Assembly (NCBI GenBank): GCA_030605835.1
Contig: JAUWHO010000025.1
Span: 29,849 to 93,848, forward strand
Source: Candidatus Zixiibacteriota bacterium
GTDB lineage: Bacteria > Zixibacteria > MSB-5A5 > DG-27
Length of the DNA: 64,000 nucleotides
Reading direction: 5' to 3'
Of this stretch, positions 52,514 to 61,789 are shown piece after piece (the stretch's first letter is position 1; each line of letters opens with the position of its first letter). The notes under the pieces are model-generated. The model was not told where the DNA came from. It ran no database searches and worked only from the letters and a program-made list of their open reading frames with translations. The position numbers and the translations under genes were made by a program.

Positions 52514-53578
52514 TTATCTCAACAAGGACATCTTCTGGGTCTGACTCACTTCTCCGCTGGTGATGCGATAGAAATAAAGCCCACTGGATACCTCTCGTCC
52601 TTCGGAGTCAGTTCCATCCCAGTTAACCTGGTAGCTTCCGGGAGACTGAACTTCGTTTACCAGTGAGCGGACCAACTCTCCTCGGAGGTTGAAGATCTCC
52701 AGACTGGTGGCAGCAGCCTCGGTGAGACGGTAGCTGATTTTGGTTGAGGCGTTGAAGGGGTTCGGATAATTCTGCAACAGCTTGGACTGGGTTGGGACAG
52801 CAGCCTCAAGGTCATCCTCCACGCCCAAGGGAGTGAGTCCGTAAAGACCTGATTTTGCCGCCTGCAACACCAACTTGTAGCTGCCGTAGTTCTGAACGAA
52901 GACCACCAACTCACAGTTTGTGTCTTCAAGCTGGTTGTCTACGTCGAAGACGTAATTCCGCTCCTTGGTCTGCCCCTCGTCGATAGTAAGGGTGTCACCG
53001 AAGTAGTACGGGATAATGTCCCGCATCACCTGATCGTAGTACTTCCCTCCGTAATAGATGTTTGATTCTATAAGCACTACGAAAAGCCTGAGATCCCAAC
53101 TTTGGGGAATGTATCCCGGAGCCGCTATCCTGACCGTCAGGTCGACTTGCCTGGTCTGAGAATCGTAGTTCCCGAATAGCTCAATGTCCAGGTAGGGGTC
53201 ATAATTCCAACGGTCTCGGATGATGCTTTCCCAGGTGCCGTAACTATCCCTACCATCGACGGTGCCATCGATCATCAAATGGGGAACGTATTTTGAACCA
53301 GGAAAGTAGAAGTTCGTCCGGGCGGTGTTCTCCTGAATGTTATGCTGGTAGAAAGGATCCCCGGAGGAGGGCCACCAGACGTGGTATCTTATCACCGCTA
53401 AAGAATCTTCGTATAACTCAGCTAACCTGCCGAGTTCCGCGTCCGCGGGCGGGCAGGAGCCTCACCCGGTATTGGTGAACATCTCCGCCACGACCATCCT
53501 GGTGGTGGCAGAGGCAGAAGCAGCTAGCAGAAAGACTATCGCCAGCGACCAGACAGCAACTAACAATCTCTTTTTCAT
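52514..53578 (-). CDS. Thioredoxin-like surface protein with in-frame TGA (predicted Sec, U-G-S-C)
   Basis: If TGA at 53462-53464 is read as selenocysteine (codon 39), the gene is one 354-residue protein. GGAGG lies six nt before the ATG. A signal peptide (1-24, L-A-A-S-A-S-A) leads to V-V-A-E-M-F-T-N-T-G-[TGA]-G-S-C-P-P-A-D-A-E-L, where Omp28/thioredoxin-like relatives have C-x-x-C-P. The fold continues with A-V-I-R-Y-H-V-W-W and the cis-Pro-type loop Y-V-P-H-L-M-I-D-G. A sorting domain (L-L-Q-N-Y-P-N-P-F-N-A-S-T to Q-K-M-S-L-L-R) ends the protein. The paralog at 53768-54802 has TGA at the same position. It has its own consensus promoter and also follows that paralog. It would be an exported oxidoreductase on the cell surface or outside. 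Confidence 0.85.
53426..53464 (-). promoter_or_regulatory. TGA codon and candidate SECIS hairpin of the U-G-S-C gene
   Basis: TGA is 53464-53462. Four nt later, CCTGCC pairs with GGCAGG (53452-53457 with 53426-53431). Inside, CCGC pairs with GCGG around a GGAC tetraloop that sits 18-21 nt past the TGA. Bacterial SECIS elements lie directly after the UGA inside the coding region, with the loop typically within about 16-37 nt, so position and shape fit. The match is structural only; SelB binding is not shown. Confidence 0.55.
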
Positions 53579-53614
53579 CGTTACCTCCAGATTCAAAGAA
53601 TAGTGGACCTATTC

Positions 53615-53643
53615 AGTATAGTATCGGAGAAGTCAAATGTCAA
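53615..53643 (-). promoter_or_regulatory. Promoter of the U-G-S-C gene
   Basis: Minus strand TTGACA (53638-53643), 17-bp spacer, TATACT (53615-53620), 37 bp before the ATG. Near consensus, so this gene can be expressed apart from the operon upstream. Confidence 0.75.
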
Positions 53644-53687
53644 GCATTAAGTCTAAATGATATCGCCCATACTGCCCCGGAGGCTGT

Positions 53688-53735
53688 TCATCTTATGAGC
53701 GACATTCTTTTAGTCTGAGAGAGTTCTCCGGTTAT
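53688..53735 (-). pseudogene. Remnant of a third sorting-domain tail
   Basis: Sixteen codons on the minus strand read I-T-G-E-L-S-Q-T-K-R-M-S-L-I-R-stop. This nearly repeats the end of the gene just upstream (A-G-E-W-S-Q-T-K-R-L-S-L-L-R). It has no gene body attached and seems to be a leftover of a duplicated or deleted paralog between the two selenoprotein-like genes. Confidence 0.6.
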
Positions 53736-53767
53736 ACGAAGGGCCGCTCGGACACACCAGAGACTCA

Positions 53768-54802
53768 TCATCTCAGAAGAGACAGTCTCTTCGTCTGCGA
53801 CCACTCTCCGGCTCGAAGTCGATAGAAGTAGATTCCGCTTGAAACTTCGCTTCCGCCTTGATCCAACCCATTCCACACGATCTGGTTTCGACCTGCCCTT
53901 CCAGGTCCCCCGATTACGGTTCGCACCAACTGACCGGGAAGATTGTAGATCTCCAGTACAACTGGAGCCGGTCTTGGGAGATTGAAAGCAATAACCGTAG
54001 AAGCGTTGAACGGGTTGGGGTAGTTCTGGGACAAGAAAAAGCTCCCTGGTAGCGCCTCAATATCCTCCTCCACCCCGCTGGGCTCCAGAGTTGTCAGACC
54101 CTCTTTGGCGGACTGCAGCACCTCCCTGGAGGAATAAGACTGAACGAAGACCGCTATTTCACAGTTTTCGTCCTCCAACTGGTTGTCCAATGTAAAGTTG
54201 CGAGTAAAATGCAAAGTCTGACCGTTGGAGATGGTAAAACTCTCTCCCTCGGCATCGGGAATCATATCGCGCATCACCTGGTTGTTGAGGTGACCTCCAT
54301 AATCAAGCTCGGATTCGGTAAGGGCAACCTGCAGCCTCAGATTTGGCTGGGTGACCTCGCCGGTGGCGGTGACCGTCAACTCAAGGGTCGTCTCTCCGGT
54401 CACGTGGTTGTAAGCCCCGTTGATTCGGATTTCCAGGTTGCTCTCCACTCCCATGCGTGCCAGTATGGAAAAGTGCCACGCTGCGTGGTTGGTACCTGCA
54501 CTGGATCCGTCGGAGAAAAGGTGTGGACGCTCCGGCTGACCGTAATAGCCATTCCGTATTGAGTTTTCGGAAGGGTTATACTGGTAGTAAGGGTCGGCCT
54601 GATACTGATGGTAGCGTATGACTGCAAGTCTGTCGGGATAGGTCTCGACCAACTGGTCGAGTGCCGCTTCGGCATAAGGGCAGATGGGTCACTCAGTGCT
54701 GGTGAACATCTCTCCCAACACCACCCTCTGGGTGGCAAAGGAGGGAACTGTCCCCAGCAGCAAAAGCGACAGACCCAGAAGAACGAACAGCGACTTTCTC
54801 AT
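53768..54802 (-). CDS. Thioredoxin-like surface protein with in-frame TGA (predicted Sec, U-P-I-C)
   Basis: With TGA at 54689-54691 read as selenocysteine (codon 38) the protein has 344 residues. GGAGG precedes the ATG, the signal peptide covers 1-23, and the active site is L-G-E-M-F-T-S-T-E-[TGA]-P-I-C-P-Y-A-E-A-A-L-D. The thioredoxin-like body shares A-V-I-R-Y-H and R-P-H-L-F-S-D-G with the paralog, and a sorting domain (S-Q-N-Y-P-N-P-F-N-A-S-T to S-Q-T-K-R-L-S-L-L-R) follows. The gene ends in TGA TGA, so TGA is both recoded (codon 38) and terminating (end) in one frame, as expected for SECIS-dependent insertion. It starts 28 bp after the outer-membrane protein gene and is probably co-transcribed. 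Confidence 0.85.
54644..54691 (-). promoter_or_regulatory. TGA codon and candidate SECIS hairpins of the U-P-I-C gene
   Basis: TGA is 54691-54689. Two perfect stem-loops follow in series: TGCCG-AAG-CGGCA (54662-54674; loop 20-22 nt past TGA) and CTCGACC-AGTT-GGTCGAG (54644-54661; loop 35-38 nt past). The second has a G-U pair of bases in its apical loop, a feature of known bacterial SECIS loops. Which of them acts, if either, is open. Confidence 0.5.
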
Positions 54803-54830: not shown

Positions 54831-56273
54831 TCAGAATCTGCTCAAAAGCAGCACTTTCGTGCCTCTGAAAGCTGGCTGGTCGACGCAGACGCCGCTGGTG
54901 CAAACCAGCCCGCCTCTCTGGTCGCCGTGGAAGACGGTGAGGTCGTTGTTGCGAAATTTTACGGTCACCTCCACGGAGGCGGTCTTTTCCGGCAGATCTC
55001 GGGACTGAGCCAGCTCGCTGCTTCTCCCGCCGGTCAGGCTTATGGAGAAGAGACTGGCGTGTGAAAAACCAAGGGTTAAATCCTTCTCGTGATAGTCCTT
55101 CAGAAACTTATCCTCGTATTTTTTGTGCAGCCCGCTGATGGAGACGGTGGTTCTTCTGGTGAGGTAGTAATACACGGAGAAATCAGACCAATGCTCTAAG
55201 TGATCGTGTTCCTTATGGCGATCGTAGCTGGCACGAACAACGTTGTCTCGATAATAGCTCCCCCTCACTCCCACAAACTGTTCATCGAAGATGTTTCCCG
55301 TCCCTCTTGTCCAGGAATTGGCCCAATCCACCTCCAGGCTCCAGTCACTGTATGGGGTTAGAGTGGCCGCCAGCCGCCAGCCGATCTCGTTCCAACCGCC
55401 ATTGAGCGACTTCTCGAAGTGGTTCACCGCGGGCGGCGAGTTCACTCCCGGAATCTGCATATGGATATAGTTCTTGTATTCGGCGGTTACCCCAAAAAAG
55501 GGGCCGTACAAGGAGCCAGACAGATAGGTGCCGTCTCCCTCAACGGGAAGCAGTGCGCTCAGATATCCTCCTTGCTGGGCGTACTCCCCGTATAGATCAA
55601 CCGGACCGAACCAGAGGCCTAAGTTGCCCTGTTTGACGTTGGTGCTTTTCATCTCTCCCAGGAAGTTTCTCTCCCAGAGCCGCAGGTAGGCACCCCCAAC
55701 AGAGAAAAGCCCAAAAGGAGTGAGAGCCGCACGCCCCCCCCTTATGCTGAGAGAATCCCTGCTGAATTCGTCGAAGATCTCTCCTCCAACCACCTCACTG
55801 TTAAACAAATCCGAGGTGTAATGAACTCTGATGCCGTCGATATTCCGACTGATGTTGGCGAAATCGTCAAAGAAGGCGTTCAACACCAAGCCTCGATCGA
55901 AGGTGGCGTTAAAGTGCCCGCCACGTATCTCCAGCCCGTTCTGGTGCCAGCCGAAATATCTCTGCCTCAGCTTGGCCTCCTCCTTGAAAGAGGAGGAGCT
56001 AAAAATCCCGGTCGGAGCGAGCTCATACCAGACCCCAGCGTAGAAATCCCCGAAGAGAAAATCGACAATCAGGCGGTTTCTGATGGAGTCCTCCTTGGCC
56101 TCCTGAGGCAAAAATCGGAAGGCAATGTTCTCCTTGAGATGATAATACTCGAAGCTGTTGGTGGCCTGAACTGACCAGTCGCCCTCGAATCCGAAAGCTC
56201 TGGGACCAGCTGCAAACAGGAGCACCAGCAAAAATAGAAGCGAAGTCAGTTTTAAAAGGAAAAGCAGTTTCAA
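54831..56273 (-). CDS. Outer-membrane beta-barrel (DUF6029-like) of the redox operon
   Basis: A 480-residue protein with a signal peptide (1-29) and about 16-18 strand-like segments rich in Tyr, Phe and Gly (E-I-R-G-G-H-F-N-A-T-F-D-R-G-L, Y-G-E-Y-A-Q-Q-G-G-Y). It ends L-L-L-S-R-F with terminal Phe. Shape and operon partners resemble the DUF6029-type barrels found beside thioredoxin-like proteins in Bacteroidota-like genomes. A late loop has G-G-L-V-C-T-S-G-V-C-V-D, two Cys four residues apart, a possible target of the neighbouring thiol proteins. It starts 15 bp after the TlpA-type gene. Confidence 0.65.
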   Translation of the reverse strand: MKLLFLLKLTSLLFLLVLLFAAGPRAFGFEGDWSVQATNSFEYYHLKENIAFRFLPQEAKEDSIRNRLIVDFLFGDFYAGVWYELAPTGIFSSSSFKEEAKLRQRYFGWHQNGLEIRGGHFNATFDRGLVLNAFFDDFANISRNIDGIRVHYTSDLFNSEVVGGEIFDEFSRDSLSIRGGRAALTPFGLFSVGGAYLRLWERNFLGEMKSTNVKQGNLGLWFGPVDLYGEYAQQGGYLSALLPVEGDGTYLSGSLYGPFFGVTAEYKNYIHMQIPGVNSPPAVNHFEKSLNGGWNEIGWRLAATLTPYSDWSLEVDWANSWTRGTGNIFDEQFVGVRGSYYRDNVVRASYDRHKEHDHLEHWSDFSVYYYLTRRTTVSISGLHKKYEDKFLKDYHEKDLTLGFSHASLFSISLTGGRSSELAQSRDLPEKTASVEVTVKFRNNDLTVFHGDQRGGLVCTSGVCVDQPAFRGTKVLLLSRF

Positions 56274-56288
56274 TCTTCTCTCCTAACC

Positions 56289-56810
56289 TTAGTCTTCCTT
56301 CTCGCTCTCGGTTTCCTTAATCAGCAGATCTTCGATCTTCTCTTCAATGGCGGCTTCATCTCCGGGTTTGAAGCCGTAACCGGTGTATACTACCTCCCCG
56401 CCAGAGTTGAGTAATACCGAGTAAGGTAGAGCGAAAACTCGGTATTTTCGGGAAATGTCACCGTCGGGATCAAGGAGGACTGGAAAGGTAAACTTCTTAC
56501 CCTTCACGAAGGATTTCACCTTAGAAAGACCCTTGGCTTTGTCCTCATTGATGGCCAAGAGCAGAAAACCCTTGTCCTGGTGTCGCTCATAGAGCTTCTG
56601 CATTATTAGAAGCTCCTCCACGCACGGCTTGCACCAGGTAGCCCAGAAGCTGATATAAATGGGACCAATTCCGTAAAGCTTCTCCAGTTCTACCTGCTGT
56701 CCATTGAGGTTTTTGAGAATGAAGTTGTGAGCGGTTTTCTTCTCCCGGGCGGAAGCTGAGGAGACTAACAGAAAAATAGCCAGGACCGATACCAACACTG
56801 AGTTTCTCAT
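56289..56810 (-). CDS. TlpA/ResA-type thioredoxin
   Basis: A 173-residue exported thioredoxin with a signal peptide (1-22). The active site is F-W-A-T-W-C-K-P-C-V-E-E at 55-66 (C60, C63), with F-P-V-L-L-D-P-D-G-D near 105, the cis-Pro loop A-L-P-Y-S-V-L-L near 125 and G-G-E-V-V-Y-T-G-Y-G. It probably passes electrons to or from thiols in the periplasm. It is the first gene of the four-gene redox operon and carries ordinary Cys codons, unlike the two paralogs further down. A Glu-rich tail ends the protein. Confidence 0.92.
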   Translation of the reverse strand: MRNSVLVSVLAIFLLVSSASAREKKTAHNFILKNLNGQQVELEKLYGIGPIYISFWATWCKPCVEELLIMQKLYERHQDKGFLLLAINEDKAKGLSKVKSFVKGKKFTFPVLLDPDGDISRKYRVFALPYSVLLNSGGEVVYTGYGFKPGDEAAIEEKIEDLLIKETESEKED

Positions 56811-58973: not shown

Positions 58974-61670
58974 TCACTTCACCAGCATCATCCTCTTGGT
59001 CTCGGTGAAATCTCCGGCGGTCAACTTGTAGAAATAGAGACCGGAAGAGTGCTCTGAGGCATCCCAGATAACAGACCTATATCCCGCCTCCTGTTTTTCC
59101 TCAACTAATGTTGCCACCTTCTCCCCGAGAACGTTGTAAACCTCCAAGTTGACCCAACTGTCCACCGGCAATTGGTAATTGATGTTAGTTGTGGCATTGA
59201 AGGGATTGGGGTAGTTCTGTTCCAGTGAAACAACCGTGGGAAGGAAAACCTCCTCACAACCCACCTCCACAAGCTGCCATCCAATACTACTGCTTATCCT
59301 CCACGGCTCACACTGAATGATGGTAGAGTTCATGCAGCAGAAGAGGTCGGAATCTCTCAGCCTCCCCTCTACTGATATACTGTATTCATCAGGAGGGACT
59401 AACCCCGGGACCTTGAAGAAGTAATGCGCTATGTTCTCACCGGGATCGTAAGTTCTAAAGCGAGGGATGGTGATCAGGATGTTCTGGGGGTCACAATCGA
59501 AGTCAGCATACGCTCTAAATGTGAGTGTTCCTGATATCGTGTTCACAGTGCAGTTCGTCACAACTACTTTGAAGTAGAGATTCTTGCCACGGCATACGGT
59601 AGGCGTCAGGCACTCACAGGTCATCCTTGCTGCATATTGGTGGAAGTACAGAGCACCGATGTCGGCTGTGGTGCTGTCTGGGTCTAAGGTGGAGTTGGGG
59701 TCACCAGAATCGATGCAGCCAGATCTTGTGCTGTCATGCGTGGGGTAGTTTTCCCACGTTATCTGAAAATCCCCGCTTTCAGGATCTCTGAACAGTGGAT
59801 CGCAATCGATGTTTTCTATTCCGGGCCAGCCCCCCTCCACGTCACAGTACCTCACGTAAGGTTCGCTGTTCTCCTCTGCGCAAATCTCAGGGCCTGATGG
59901 AGCCTCGTCCTCCCACAATATGGTGTTTGTGACTGTGGGGTTGCATTCGTTGAGACAGTAAAGGCCACCGCCCTTCTCGGAGGCAATGTTACGACTTATT
60001 GTGGCGTTCGTGACCGTTGGGCTCGAATGATCGAGGCAGAAGACACCACCACCCAGCTGGGCCGAATTGAGGCTGATGGTGTTGCCGGTCATCGTGCCGC
60101 CTGACCAATTGGTGTAGGCAATCCCACCACCCTGATGACCCCCACTGTTTTGCCTGATCGTATTGTCCATTATTGTTGGGCTAGACTGACCACAATAGAC
60201 CCCACCACCGGCGTCAATAGCGCCATTCCCCGTGATTTGATTGCCTTCTATCATCGGGCTGGAATTGCGCGAACACCAGATACCACCTCCCAGGGGAGCT
60301 AGATTAAGAAGTATGGCATTGCCACGTATGACACCGTTCGATTCAAGCCTGCTGGCAATCCCACCACCAGCATATGTAGCCACGTTGGCGATAACGATGT
60401 TATTCTCTATTGTAGGGCTCGACTCACGGCTGTAGATCCCCCCTCCCCACCAGGTGCGTGCCAGATTCTCAATGATATTGTTGTTGGCTATGGTCGGACT
60501 TGAACTCCTGTGGCACTTAATCCCTCCCCCTTCGCCGTCAGAGTTCTGGCGGATGATATTCTCTGTTATCGTGGGGCTTGAGCTTTCGCAGCAAATGCCG
60601 TTACCGGAATTGCCACTTATGGTATTGCCGGTTATCACTGGAGACGAGCCAACGCACAAGATTCCCCCGCCTTGCCAGTTGCCTCTGTTCTCCGTTATGG
60701 CGTTGTCCACTATCTCTGGATTACTGTTACCGTAACAGGATATCCCACCACCACCAGCTGAGTCGGCTGAATTGCCGCTGATGATGTTGTCACTTATGTA
60801 CGGACCAGAAGAATCTTCGCACGCGATACCCCCCCCAGACCCACCTCCGCACACGCCGAGAGCGGCAACCCGGTTGTCGGTAATGAAGTTACACACTATT
60901 CTTGGATCAGAGCTTATGCAGTAGATACCCCCACCATCGGCGTCAGTGACACCGTCTGCTGTATTGCCACATATGGTGTTACCCTCTATGATAGGAGTGG
61001 ATTCACGACACGAGATGCCCCCGCCTCTCGCATATGAGGTCCTTGCCGTATTCCTTTCTATCGTATTATTCCTAATAATTGGGCTAGACCAGTAGCAGCA
61101 AATTCCACCTCCCCAAGTCCAGAAAACTGAAGTCGAGCGATTGCGCGTGATCAGATTGCCCTCTATCACGGGACTGGACAGTGTGTCGCAGTAGATAGCT
61201 CCGCCTTGAGTCGCTGAGTTCTCCTGCAGAGTGTTGTTGCTTATAGTGGGACTGCAACGGAAGCAGTAGATTGCACCCCCCAGGTTGTCCACATACGGGT
61301 CAAGAGCTTTTCCGTATTCCAAGATAGAGTAGCTTATCCTTGAATTCGCACTGCCGTGAATGAATCTGATGCCATGCCAGCCGGTTGAAGGGTCATCTGC
61401 AGTGAAATGGATGGAGTCGTTCTCAGTCCCAACTGCCAGGAGAGTAGCCAAGCTGTCCACGATGAACTTGTAGTGGCCCTGGAAATTGACGAGGACTCCG
61501 GGCTCGATCACCAGAGTTGATCCCGGTGGCACTCTAACTTCGCCGATGACATTATACGGGCTGTTTTCCCTTGTCCAGGTGCCCCAGACGTCGCCTTCGA
61601 CATCGGTTGCTGACGCCACAGCGGGGAACAATACAGCCACGATTAACAACAATAGAATTAGGTTTCTCAT
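58974..61670 (-). CDS. Right-handed beta-helix surface protein with sorting tail
   Basis: An 898-residue exported protein. A signal peptide (1-21) and a cap (residues 30-100) precede about 17 parallel beta-helix coils of 22-26 residues (about 110-610), each with G-G-G-I-x-C, S-S-P-x-I and x-N-x-I-x-x-N. Many coils place a Cys at the same spot, giving a cysteine ladder. A Cys-rich domain at about 683-800 (M-T-C-E-C-L-T-P ... F-C-C-M-N ... I-I-Q-C-E-P-W) matches that of the BNR protein at 13084. The end is the sorting domain (E-Q-N-Y-P-N-P-F-N-A-T-T to R-M-M-L-V-K). GGAGGTTCTC precedes the ATG. Such helices often bind or cut polysaccharide; no catalytic set was identified. Confidence 0.85.
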   Translation of the reverse strand: MRNLILLLLIVAVLFPAVASATDVEGDVWGTWTRENSPYNVIGEVRVPPGSTLVIEPGVLVNFQGHYKFIVDSLATLLAVGTENDSIHFTADDPSTGWHGIRFIHGSANSRISYSILEYGKALDPYVDNLGGAIYCFRCSPTISNNTLQENSATQGGAIYCDTLSSPVIEGNLITRNRSTSVFWTWGGGICCYWSSPIIRNNTIERNTARTSYARGGGISCRESTPIIEGNTICGNTADGVTDADGGGIYCISSDPRIVCNFITDNRVAALGVCGGGSGGGIACEDSSGPYISDNIISGNSADSAGGGGISCYGNSNPEIVDNAITENRGNWQGGGILCVGSSPVITGNTISGNSGNGICCESSSPTITENIIRQNSDGEGGGIKCHRSSSPTIANNNIIENLARTWWGGGIYSRESSPTIENNIVIANVATYAGGGIASRLESNGVIRGNAILLNLAPLGGGIWCSRNSSPMIEGNQITGNGAIDAGGGVYCGQSSPTIMDNTIRQNSGGHQGGGIAYTNWSGGTMTGNTISLNSAQLGGGVFCLDHSSPTVTNATISRNIASEKGGGLYCLNECNPTVTNTILWEDEAPSGPEICAEENSEPYVRYCDVEGGWPGIENIDCDPLFRDPESGDFQITWENYPTHDSTRSGCIDSGDPNSTLDPDSTTADIGALYFHQYAARMTCECLTPTVCRGKNLYFKVVVTNCTVNTISGTLTFRAYADFDCDPQNILITIPRFRTYDPGENIAHYFFKVPGLVPPDEYSISVEGRLRDSDLFCCMNSTIIQCEPWRISSSIGWQLVEVGCEEVFLPTVVSLEQNYPNPFNATTNINYQLPVDSWVNLEVYNVLGEKVATLVEEKQEAGYRSVIWDASEHSSGLYFYKLTAGDFTETKRMMLVK

Positions 61671-61717
61671 GAGAACCTCCCCTGAGTTCCGCGGGTAAGA
61701 AATGCCCTCTCTTAGAT

Positions 61718-61745
61718 AGGATAATCCATATTCATAGAAAGTCAA
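61718..61745 (-). promoter_or_regulatory. Promoter of the beta-helix gene
   Basis: Minus strand TTGACT (61740-61745), 16-bp spacer, TATCCT (61718-61723), about 50 bp before the ATG. Confidence 0.45.
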
Positions 61746-61764
61746 GGATTTTTCGGGGAAACAA

Positions 61765-61789
61765 AGCCCAGGTTGAGACAACCTGGGCT
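61765..61789. repeat. Hairpin repeat next to a tandem array
   Basis: AGCCCAGGTT-GAGAC-AACCTGGGCT, perfect over 10 bp, followed by ACG. It could serve as a terminator for pdxJ, but no T-run follows; its right arm runs straight into the 10-bp tandem repeats. Confidence 0.75.

Follow-up and report, generated by a model that had tools for sequence, protein, structure and literature searches.

Two adjacent genes in a 64,000-nucleotide (nt) stretch of the genome of a Candidatus Zixiibacteriota bacterium (GenBank assembly GCA_030605835.1, contig JAUWHO010000025.1, positions 29,849 to 93,848; hereafter the window) each carry an in-frame TGA codon close to their start, raising the question of whether these codons are stops or are read as selenocysteine (Sec, U). 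Because most relatives carry TGA or else a redox-type Cys at the position of both codons, and because the genome contains the Sec gene set, we predict that the two genes code for selenoproteins, a reading that is very likely correct. More specifically, we are highly confident that genes 1 and 2 code for exported Omp28-related selenoproteins whose U-x-x-C redox site would use Sec as its attacking residue.

The TGA site in the window and in relatives

Gene 1 (52514..53578, 354 residues including U39) and gene 2 (53768..54802, 344 residues including U38) both lie on the minus strand, as do all other window features described below. Reading frame and homolog alignment reveal a single in-frame TGA per gene, at 53462..53464 in gene 1 (predicted Sec codon 39, in the context MFTNTG-U-GSCPP) and at 54689..54691 in gene 2 (predicted Sec codon 38, MFTSTE-U-PICPY). 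Each occupies the first position of a C-x-x-C motif with which helix 1 of a predicted thioredoxin fold begins, and the resulting U-x-x-C (U-G-S-C in gene 1, U-P-I-C in gene 2) falls at the thioredoxin active-site position in the fold prediction. The two proteins share approximately 45% identity, and their TGA codons and partner Cys co-align, confirming the claim of an initial annotation of this DNA that codons 39 and 38 represent the same homologous site. That annotation had also described a ribosome site, a signal peptide and an intact frame leading to a sorting tail, all of which were recovered: a GGAGG-type ribosome site precedes both genes, both N-termini resemble a signal peptide by eye (a helix in the AlphaFold2 model of gene 1), and 315 (gene 1) and 306 (gene 2) sense codons follow the TGA through to a type IX sorting tail. 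The tail spans residues 271-350 in gene 1 (52529..52768; Pfam and NCBIfam) and residues 261-340 in gene 2 (53783..54022), where the Pfam tail model stays under its cut-off; TIGR04183 exceeds its cut-off of 23 bits in both (39.4 and 36.9 bits, respectively).

Omp28 (PF11551) matched residues 95-243 of gene 1 (52850..53296, 60.6 bits) and residues 104-233 of gene 2 (54104..54493, 51.9 bits), in both cases over the gathering cut-off of 34.9. FlgD_ig passed its Pfam cut-off in both genes, while Por_Secre_tail, CHU_C and DUF1223 did so in gene 1 and remained under their cut-offs in gene 2. With a two-domain profile devoid of the tail, genes 1 and 2 were the sole matches within their own genome; the other 137 of the 139 matches of gene 1 in that genome, for which 150 candidates were scored, start at residue 190 or later, at or near the tail. 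Between the two genes, positions 53688-53736 encode ITGELSQTKRMSLIR, a stretch that resembles the end of a sorting tail without a preceding gene and is probably what remains of another, third copy in the tandem.

Relatives were sampled from 132 Zixibacteria genomes and one locus outside the phylum (Stahlbacteria). The two-domain profile yielded 70 matches in 17 of the 132 genomes, and a scan for open reading frames returned 71 distinct pieces, 69 from these 17 genomes and two from the Stahlbacteria locus. Sixty-eight of them span the site, the three others coming from genomes G115 and G120 and from Stahlbacteria. At the site, 41 pieces have TGA, 26 have Cys and one has Asn. The 41 TGA genes are spread over 14 genomes, with a maximum of six per genome (G111 and G122) and runs of up to four consecutive TGA genes (G114 and G106); none contains a second in-frame TGA inside the matched domain. 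The piece list being bounded by TAA and TAG, these stops were checked separately in the 70 read-through matches and were found in just two, both away from the site. A short match in G120, under the length limit of the scan and therefore uncounted, has TGA at the site and TAG further along. The database homologs gave a matching picture: among 118 proteins, 65 have Cys at the site, one has Ser and 52 begin past it, all 52 aligning from within their first 10 residues. Gene 2 of the window is itself among the 118, in a form shortened by gene calling. Hence, if a single Asn piece and a single Ser protein from the database are set aside, the aligned column that the initial annotation had proposed to inspect holds Cys or TGA.

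Five Cys-type paralogs (L093, L095, L097, L100 and L084) have Ser or Ala in place of the second Cys (CxxS or CxxA) and can therefore hardly perform the same disulfide chemistry. Broken or fragmentary Omp28 pieces stand behind two arrays (L109 in G115 and L092 in G120); either gain and loss of Omp28 copies is, as it seems, frequent, or the assemblies are in error at these places.

A quick tree of 80 rows, comprising 67 of the 68 pieces, in which the site was masked, and 13 of the 118 database proteins, required 14 label changes, eight of them forced by starred branches, compared to 26.8 in shuffles. Gene 2 groups with genes of family f17, most of which have TGA, and gene 1 joins the larger fork that encloses this group; support is weak for both placements.

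If genes 1 and 2 were pseudogenes, a nonsense mutation having struck each of them at the equivalent codon, the standard-code reading would simply end at codon 38 or 39, and the sorting-tail remnant between the genes indicates that decay does occur at this locus; we nevertheless rejected this very improbable explanation on the phylum-wide pattern, namely the recurrence of TGA at one codon across 14 genomes with no other TGA in the domain, the scarcity of TAA and TAG, none of them at the site, and the hairpins found behind TGA sites and not behind Cys sites (see below). The argument of the initial annotation that two chance nonsense mutations were unlikely is thereby borne out.

Selenocysteine machinery and SECIS-like hairpins

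The genome assembly, which is 96.4% complete and comprises 2.68 Mb in 53 contigs, contains all four of the Sec genes whose presence the initial annotation had made its first check. A tRNA-Sec was found at 69.8 bits against a gathering cut-off of 47 and labelled tRNA-SeC by ARAGORN, along with selB (368 bits, cut-off 242), selA (574 bits, cut-off 268) and selD (370 bits, cut-off 125). Across 14 control genomes, the tRNA-Sec, selB, selA and selD models exceeded their cut-offs in 5, 2, 1 and 2 genomes, respectively. selD adjoins selA and has a TGA of its own in the motif SGAG-U-AAK (locus L036), followed by a hairpin of −8.5 kcal/mol whose loop lies 33 nt past the TGA, a spacing identical to that of gene 1. 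In the phylum, tRNA-Sec was detected at an E-value of 1e-9 in 105 of the 132 genomes and in 13 of the 14 genomes with TGA copies. Three match-bearing genomes lack TGA copies: tRNA-Sec is present in G112 and G113, and G110 carries selB along with a match of 49 bits to the tRNA-Sec model. G110, with only a Cys copy, was considered as a genome devoid of the Sec trait and rejected as such, selB being over its cut-off and the 49-bit match being present despite no tRNA-Sec at 1e-9.

TGA is also an ordinary stop in this cluster, because gene 2 ends in TGATGA with no hairpin better than −0.9 kcal/mol behind it under the rule given below. For this reason, and because the site alternates with Cys (one Asn piece aside) in a genome that has the Sec genes, the notion that UGA is recoded in this organism or read as another amino acid, which has the open frame and nothing more in its favor, was likewise discarded on the phylum-wide pattern as highly improbable.

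SECIS (Sec insertion sequence)-like hairpins were sought in the TGA and Cys genes using a rule for bacterial selenoproteins printed in the review PMC13188914: a loop of 3-9 nt with G in one of its first two positions, located 16-37 nt past the UGA, and a stem of at least 4 bp reaching −7.5 kcal/mol or better, the energy in our scan being that of one uninterrupted stem in any placement. Gene 1 has such a hairpin at 53415..53436 (8-bp stem, loop AGGUUA, 33 nt past the TGA, −10.1 kcal/mol) and gene 2 at 54644..54661 (7-bp stem, loop AGUU, 34 nt past the TGA, −10.7 kcal/mol). Both fall inside the intervals, 53400-53470 and 54630-54700, where the initial annotation had expected them. The rule selected both window genes, 28 of the 41 TGA genes, none of the 26 Cys genes and, elsewhere in the TGA genes, 43 of 3000 codon positions; with the threshold relaxed to −5 kcal/mol, 35 of 41, one of 26 and 168 of 3000 background codons passed. 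A narrower scan, in which the window started at most 15 nt from the TGA and was at least 22 nt long, accepted 22 of the 41 TGA genes and 4 of the 26 Cys genes, missed gene 2, and was replaced.

The hairpins fall into three registers: the loop lies at about 34 nt in 14 genes, drawn mainly from f17 and including those of the window, at 24 nt in 19 genes, the majority from f15 and f16, and at 20 nt in 8, chiefly from f13. With the registers picked by eye after the sequences had been seen and each TGA gene set in its best one, re-dealt partners paired as well as the real ones in 0, 0 and 10 of 2000 trials for the 34-, 24- and 20-nt registers, respectively. Two-sided stem changes, such as C-G to U-A or G-C to A-U or U-G, occur in the register class of the window. 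The proportion of paired cells was 0.87-0.95 in TGA genes versus 0.39-0.48 in Cys genes, a comparison biased toward the former, each TGA gene being scored in its best register and Cys genes being tried in all three. In the 24-nt register, 12 of the 41 TGA genes share a 20-mer, CTGATCTGGTCTTAGATCAG, that is unvaried between them and lies behind the TGA, and that none of the 26 Cys genes holds; its carriers are divergent paralogs from six genomes (L048, L049, L050, L052, L063, L064, L074, L087 and L094). CTGATCTGGTCTTAGATCAG is a putative SECIS-like element strongly conserved within coding DNA.

Several observations weigh against the selenoprotein reading. Besides the choice of registers by eye, 13 of the 41 TGA genes fail the −7.5 kcal/mol threshold, and the fold energy of the region is unexceptional compared to shuffles in gene 1 (z = −1.02, 29 of 200 as good) and moderate in gene 2 (z = −2.46, 6 of 200 as good). 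One homolog, in G113, departs from the Cys-or-TGA pattern at the aligned site. G107, which has two TGA copies, has selB over its cut-off and a best tRNA-Sec match of 45.1 bits, with 47 required; this draft genome comprises about 360 contigs and is 7% contaminated. The closest relative of either window gene among the 132 genomes is only 46% identical, and the two-domain profile found no match in the sole genome of the same genus, which is 52% complete.

The tlpA-DUF6029-omp28 cluster and the predicted location of the proteins

The gene directly upstream of the Omp28 genes (54831..56273) codes for a protein that matches DUF6029 at 66.1 bits, against a cut-off of 27, and is predicted to be an outer-membrane β-barrel. 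It is preceded by a gene (56289..56810) for a TlpA-like exported thioredoxin with the motif W-C-K-P-C (AhpC-TSA, 80.1 bits, cut-off 26). Within the retrieved loci, 12 of the 17 genomes have DUF6029 immediately ahead of the leading Omp28 gene. In seven of these 12, the window counted, a TlpA-like gene in turn immediately precedes DUF6029, the other five stretches ending too early to show this. DUF6029 was not seen in the available stretches of G103, G106, G107, G112 and G113; in G106, a TlpA-like gene stands behind the array. Clusters contain one to four omp28 copies, and in G119, G120, G121 and G122 the Cys form comes first in the array with TGA forms behind it (in G120, a broken piece).

The DUF6029 protein has a C-T-S-G-V-C motif at residues 458-463 (54885..54902), in its last loop. 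All 40 sequences in the alignment keep both Cys458 and Cys463. Of these, 11 stem from the window and loci, duplicates and the incomplete copy of L067 having been set aside, and the other 29 are all the proteins retained at an E-value of 1e-10 with the best 7996 candidates scored. The structural model is a β-barrel (predicted local distance difference test 81, predicted template modeling score 0.75) whose nearest structures by Foldseek are barrels of the outer membrane, among them PapC, FimD and AlgE (TM-score 0.35-0.61). Counting strands in this model, with the last ending in the periplasm, puts the short turns mostly inside and the long loops outside, and would place the C-x(4)-C hairpin (residues 453-468) outside the cell. 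The barrel may have a role other than redox chemistry, since a part in polysaccharide export is suggested for DUF6029-like barrels in PMC9603273 and since the model resembles the alginate porin AlgE.

PADLOC returned no match for the gene 1 protein or the DUF6029 protein. Type IX-type tails have more than 130 matches in the genome; one ends a 935-residue protein with right-handed β-helix repeats encoded at 58974-61781.

We propose that these genes specify a cell-surface selenium-dependent thiol system. SelB and Sec-tRNA would read the UGA by means of the hairpin, and the signal peptide and type IX tail would carry the protein across the outer membrane to the surface, where the U-x-x-C protein would reduce or exchange disulfides, or perhaps peroxides. 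Less certainly, the outward C-x(4)-C loop of DUF6029 might serve as its docking or redox partner, a step that we infer, and the TlpA-like protein might serve the same system from the periplasm. In its most elaborate form, an outer-surface relay in which the C-x(4)-C motif swaps electrons with an anchored U-x-x-C array fed by the TlpA-like reductase from the periplasm, the scheme is a tentative one that we hold to be doubtful. Thiol-disulfide enzyme activity of both proteins is likely, and the surface is their predicted location; that this location and the link to DUF6029 are deduced from tail, topology and gene order only also tells against the proposal. Of the surface oxidoreductases put forward in the initial annotation, then, the U-x-x-C at a thioredoxin active-site position stands by fold prediction, and the surface and redox parts keep the status of predictions.

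The Sec proteins could instead be periplasmic Dsb-type folding factors, as the presence of an exported TlpA-like thioredoxin in the cluster might suggest, all the more so as surface localization is itself a prediction. Their type IX tails and the SprA translocon gene of the genome (598 bits, cut-off 200) point the other way, as does the surface form reported for HBP35 of Porphyromonas gingivalis (PDB 5Y1A), a structural neighbor; the forms of HBP35 also reported in the cytoplasm count in favor of the periplasmic reading. HBP35 combines a thioredoxin domain with an Omp28-like domain in the same arrangement; it shares 16% sequence identity with the window proteins, has Cys rather than Sec in its active site and binds hemin. 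On balance, we regard a periplasmic folding factor as quite unlikely, and retain surface-exposed selenoproteins as the preferred reading.

Known relatives and significance

Two further structures, those of Omp28 (PF11551; PDB 2R2C) and DUF1223 (PF06764; PDB 2AXO), match the window proteins by profile and by fold, each covering only one part in sequence. No Sec form was found described for PF11551 or PF06764 in a literature search limited to Omp28 terms, which returned nothing joining Omp28 by name with selenoprotein or selenocysteine; among the material retrieved, nothing relevant joined selenoproteins with type IX secretion or Zixibacteria, and the available text of the deep-Sep paper (PMC12013277) contains no occurrence of Omp, DUF1223 or Zixi. 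The author of the initial annotation knew of no Sec versions of this Omp28-like domain. Such proteins had in fact been published: a 2008 ocean survey (PMC2398784) describes GOS_C as a U-x-x-C protein of thioredoxin-like fold, represented by 74 TGA sequences and 312 with Cys, and Table 1 of a 2026 review (PMC13188914) files GOS_C under NF045500, an NCBIfam model that NCBI names 'Omp28-related selenoprotein'.

Genes 1 and 2 might accordingly be plain members of NF045500. The model matches them domain-wide (45.5 bits for gene 1, 68.7 bits for gene 2), matches type IX tails too, and shares with them the U-x-x-C motif; as far as the sources show, the thioredoxin-like fold and a predicted Sec with Cys homologs are also common to both. 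However, its cut-off is 200 bits, far above these scores and reached in none of the 132 genomes, and a plain Omp28 lipoprotein model scores alike (50.8 and 62.4 bits). Because no genome reaches this cut-off, the Zixibacteria genes are GOS_C-like yet not members by the NCBI test, and we consider plain membership unlikely. The published account of GOS_C, in the portion seen, also lacks the tandem arrays and the tlpA-DUF6029 cluster, and what we found of the literature on Omp28-related selenoproteins, likewise seen in part, makes no mention of the arrays, the cluster or the barrel motif. By sequence, the Zixibacteria proteins are a putative divergent branch of a group whose Sec-containing members are already known.

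The family is tandemly multiplied, shares a conserved cluster with a barrel that bears Cys, and is shortened in databases, 52 of 118 entries being affected. Its alternation of TGA and Cys and its three hairpin positions make it a good case for studying the gain and loss of Sec and the movement of SECIS elements. Selenium proteins on the outer surface of a bacterium would put an easily oxidized residue to unusual use and, should the relay exist, the cell would perform selenium-based thiol-disulfide chemistry beyond its outer membrane.
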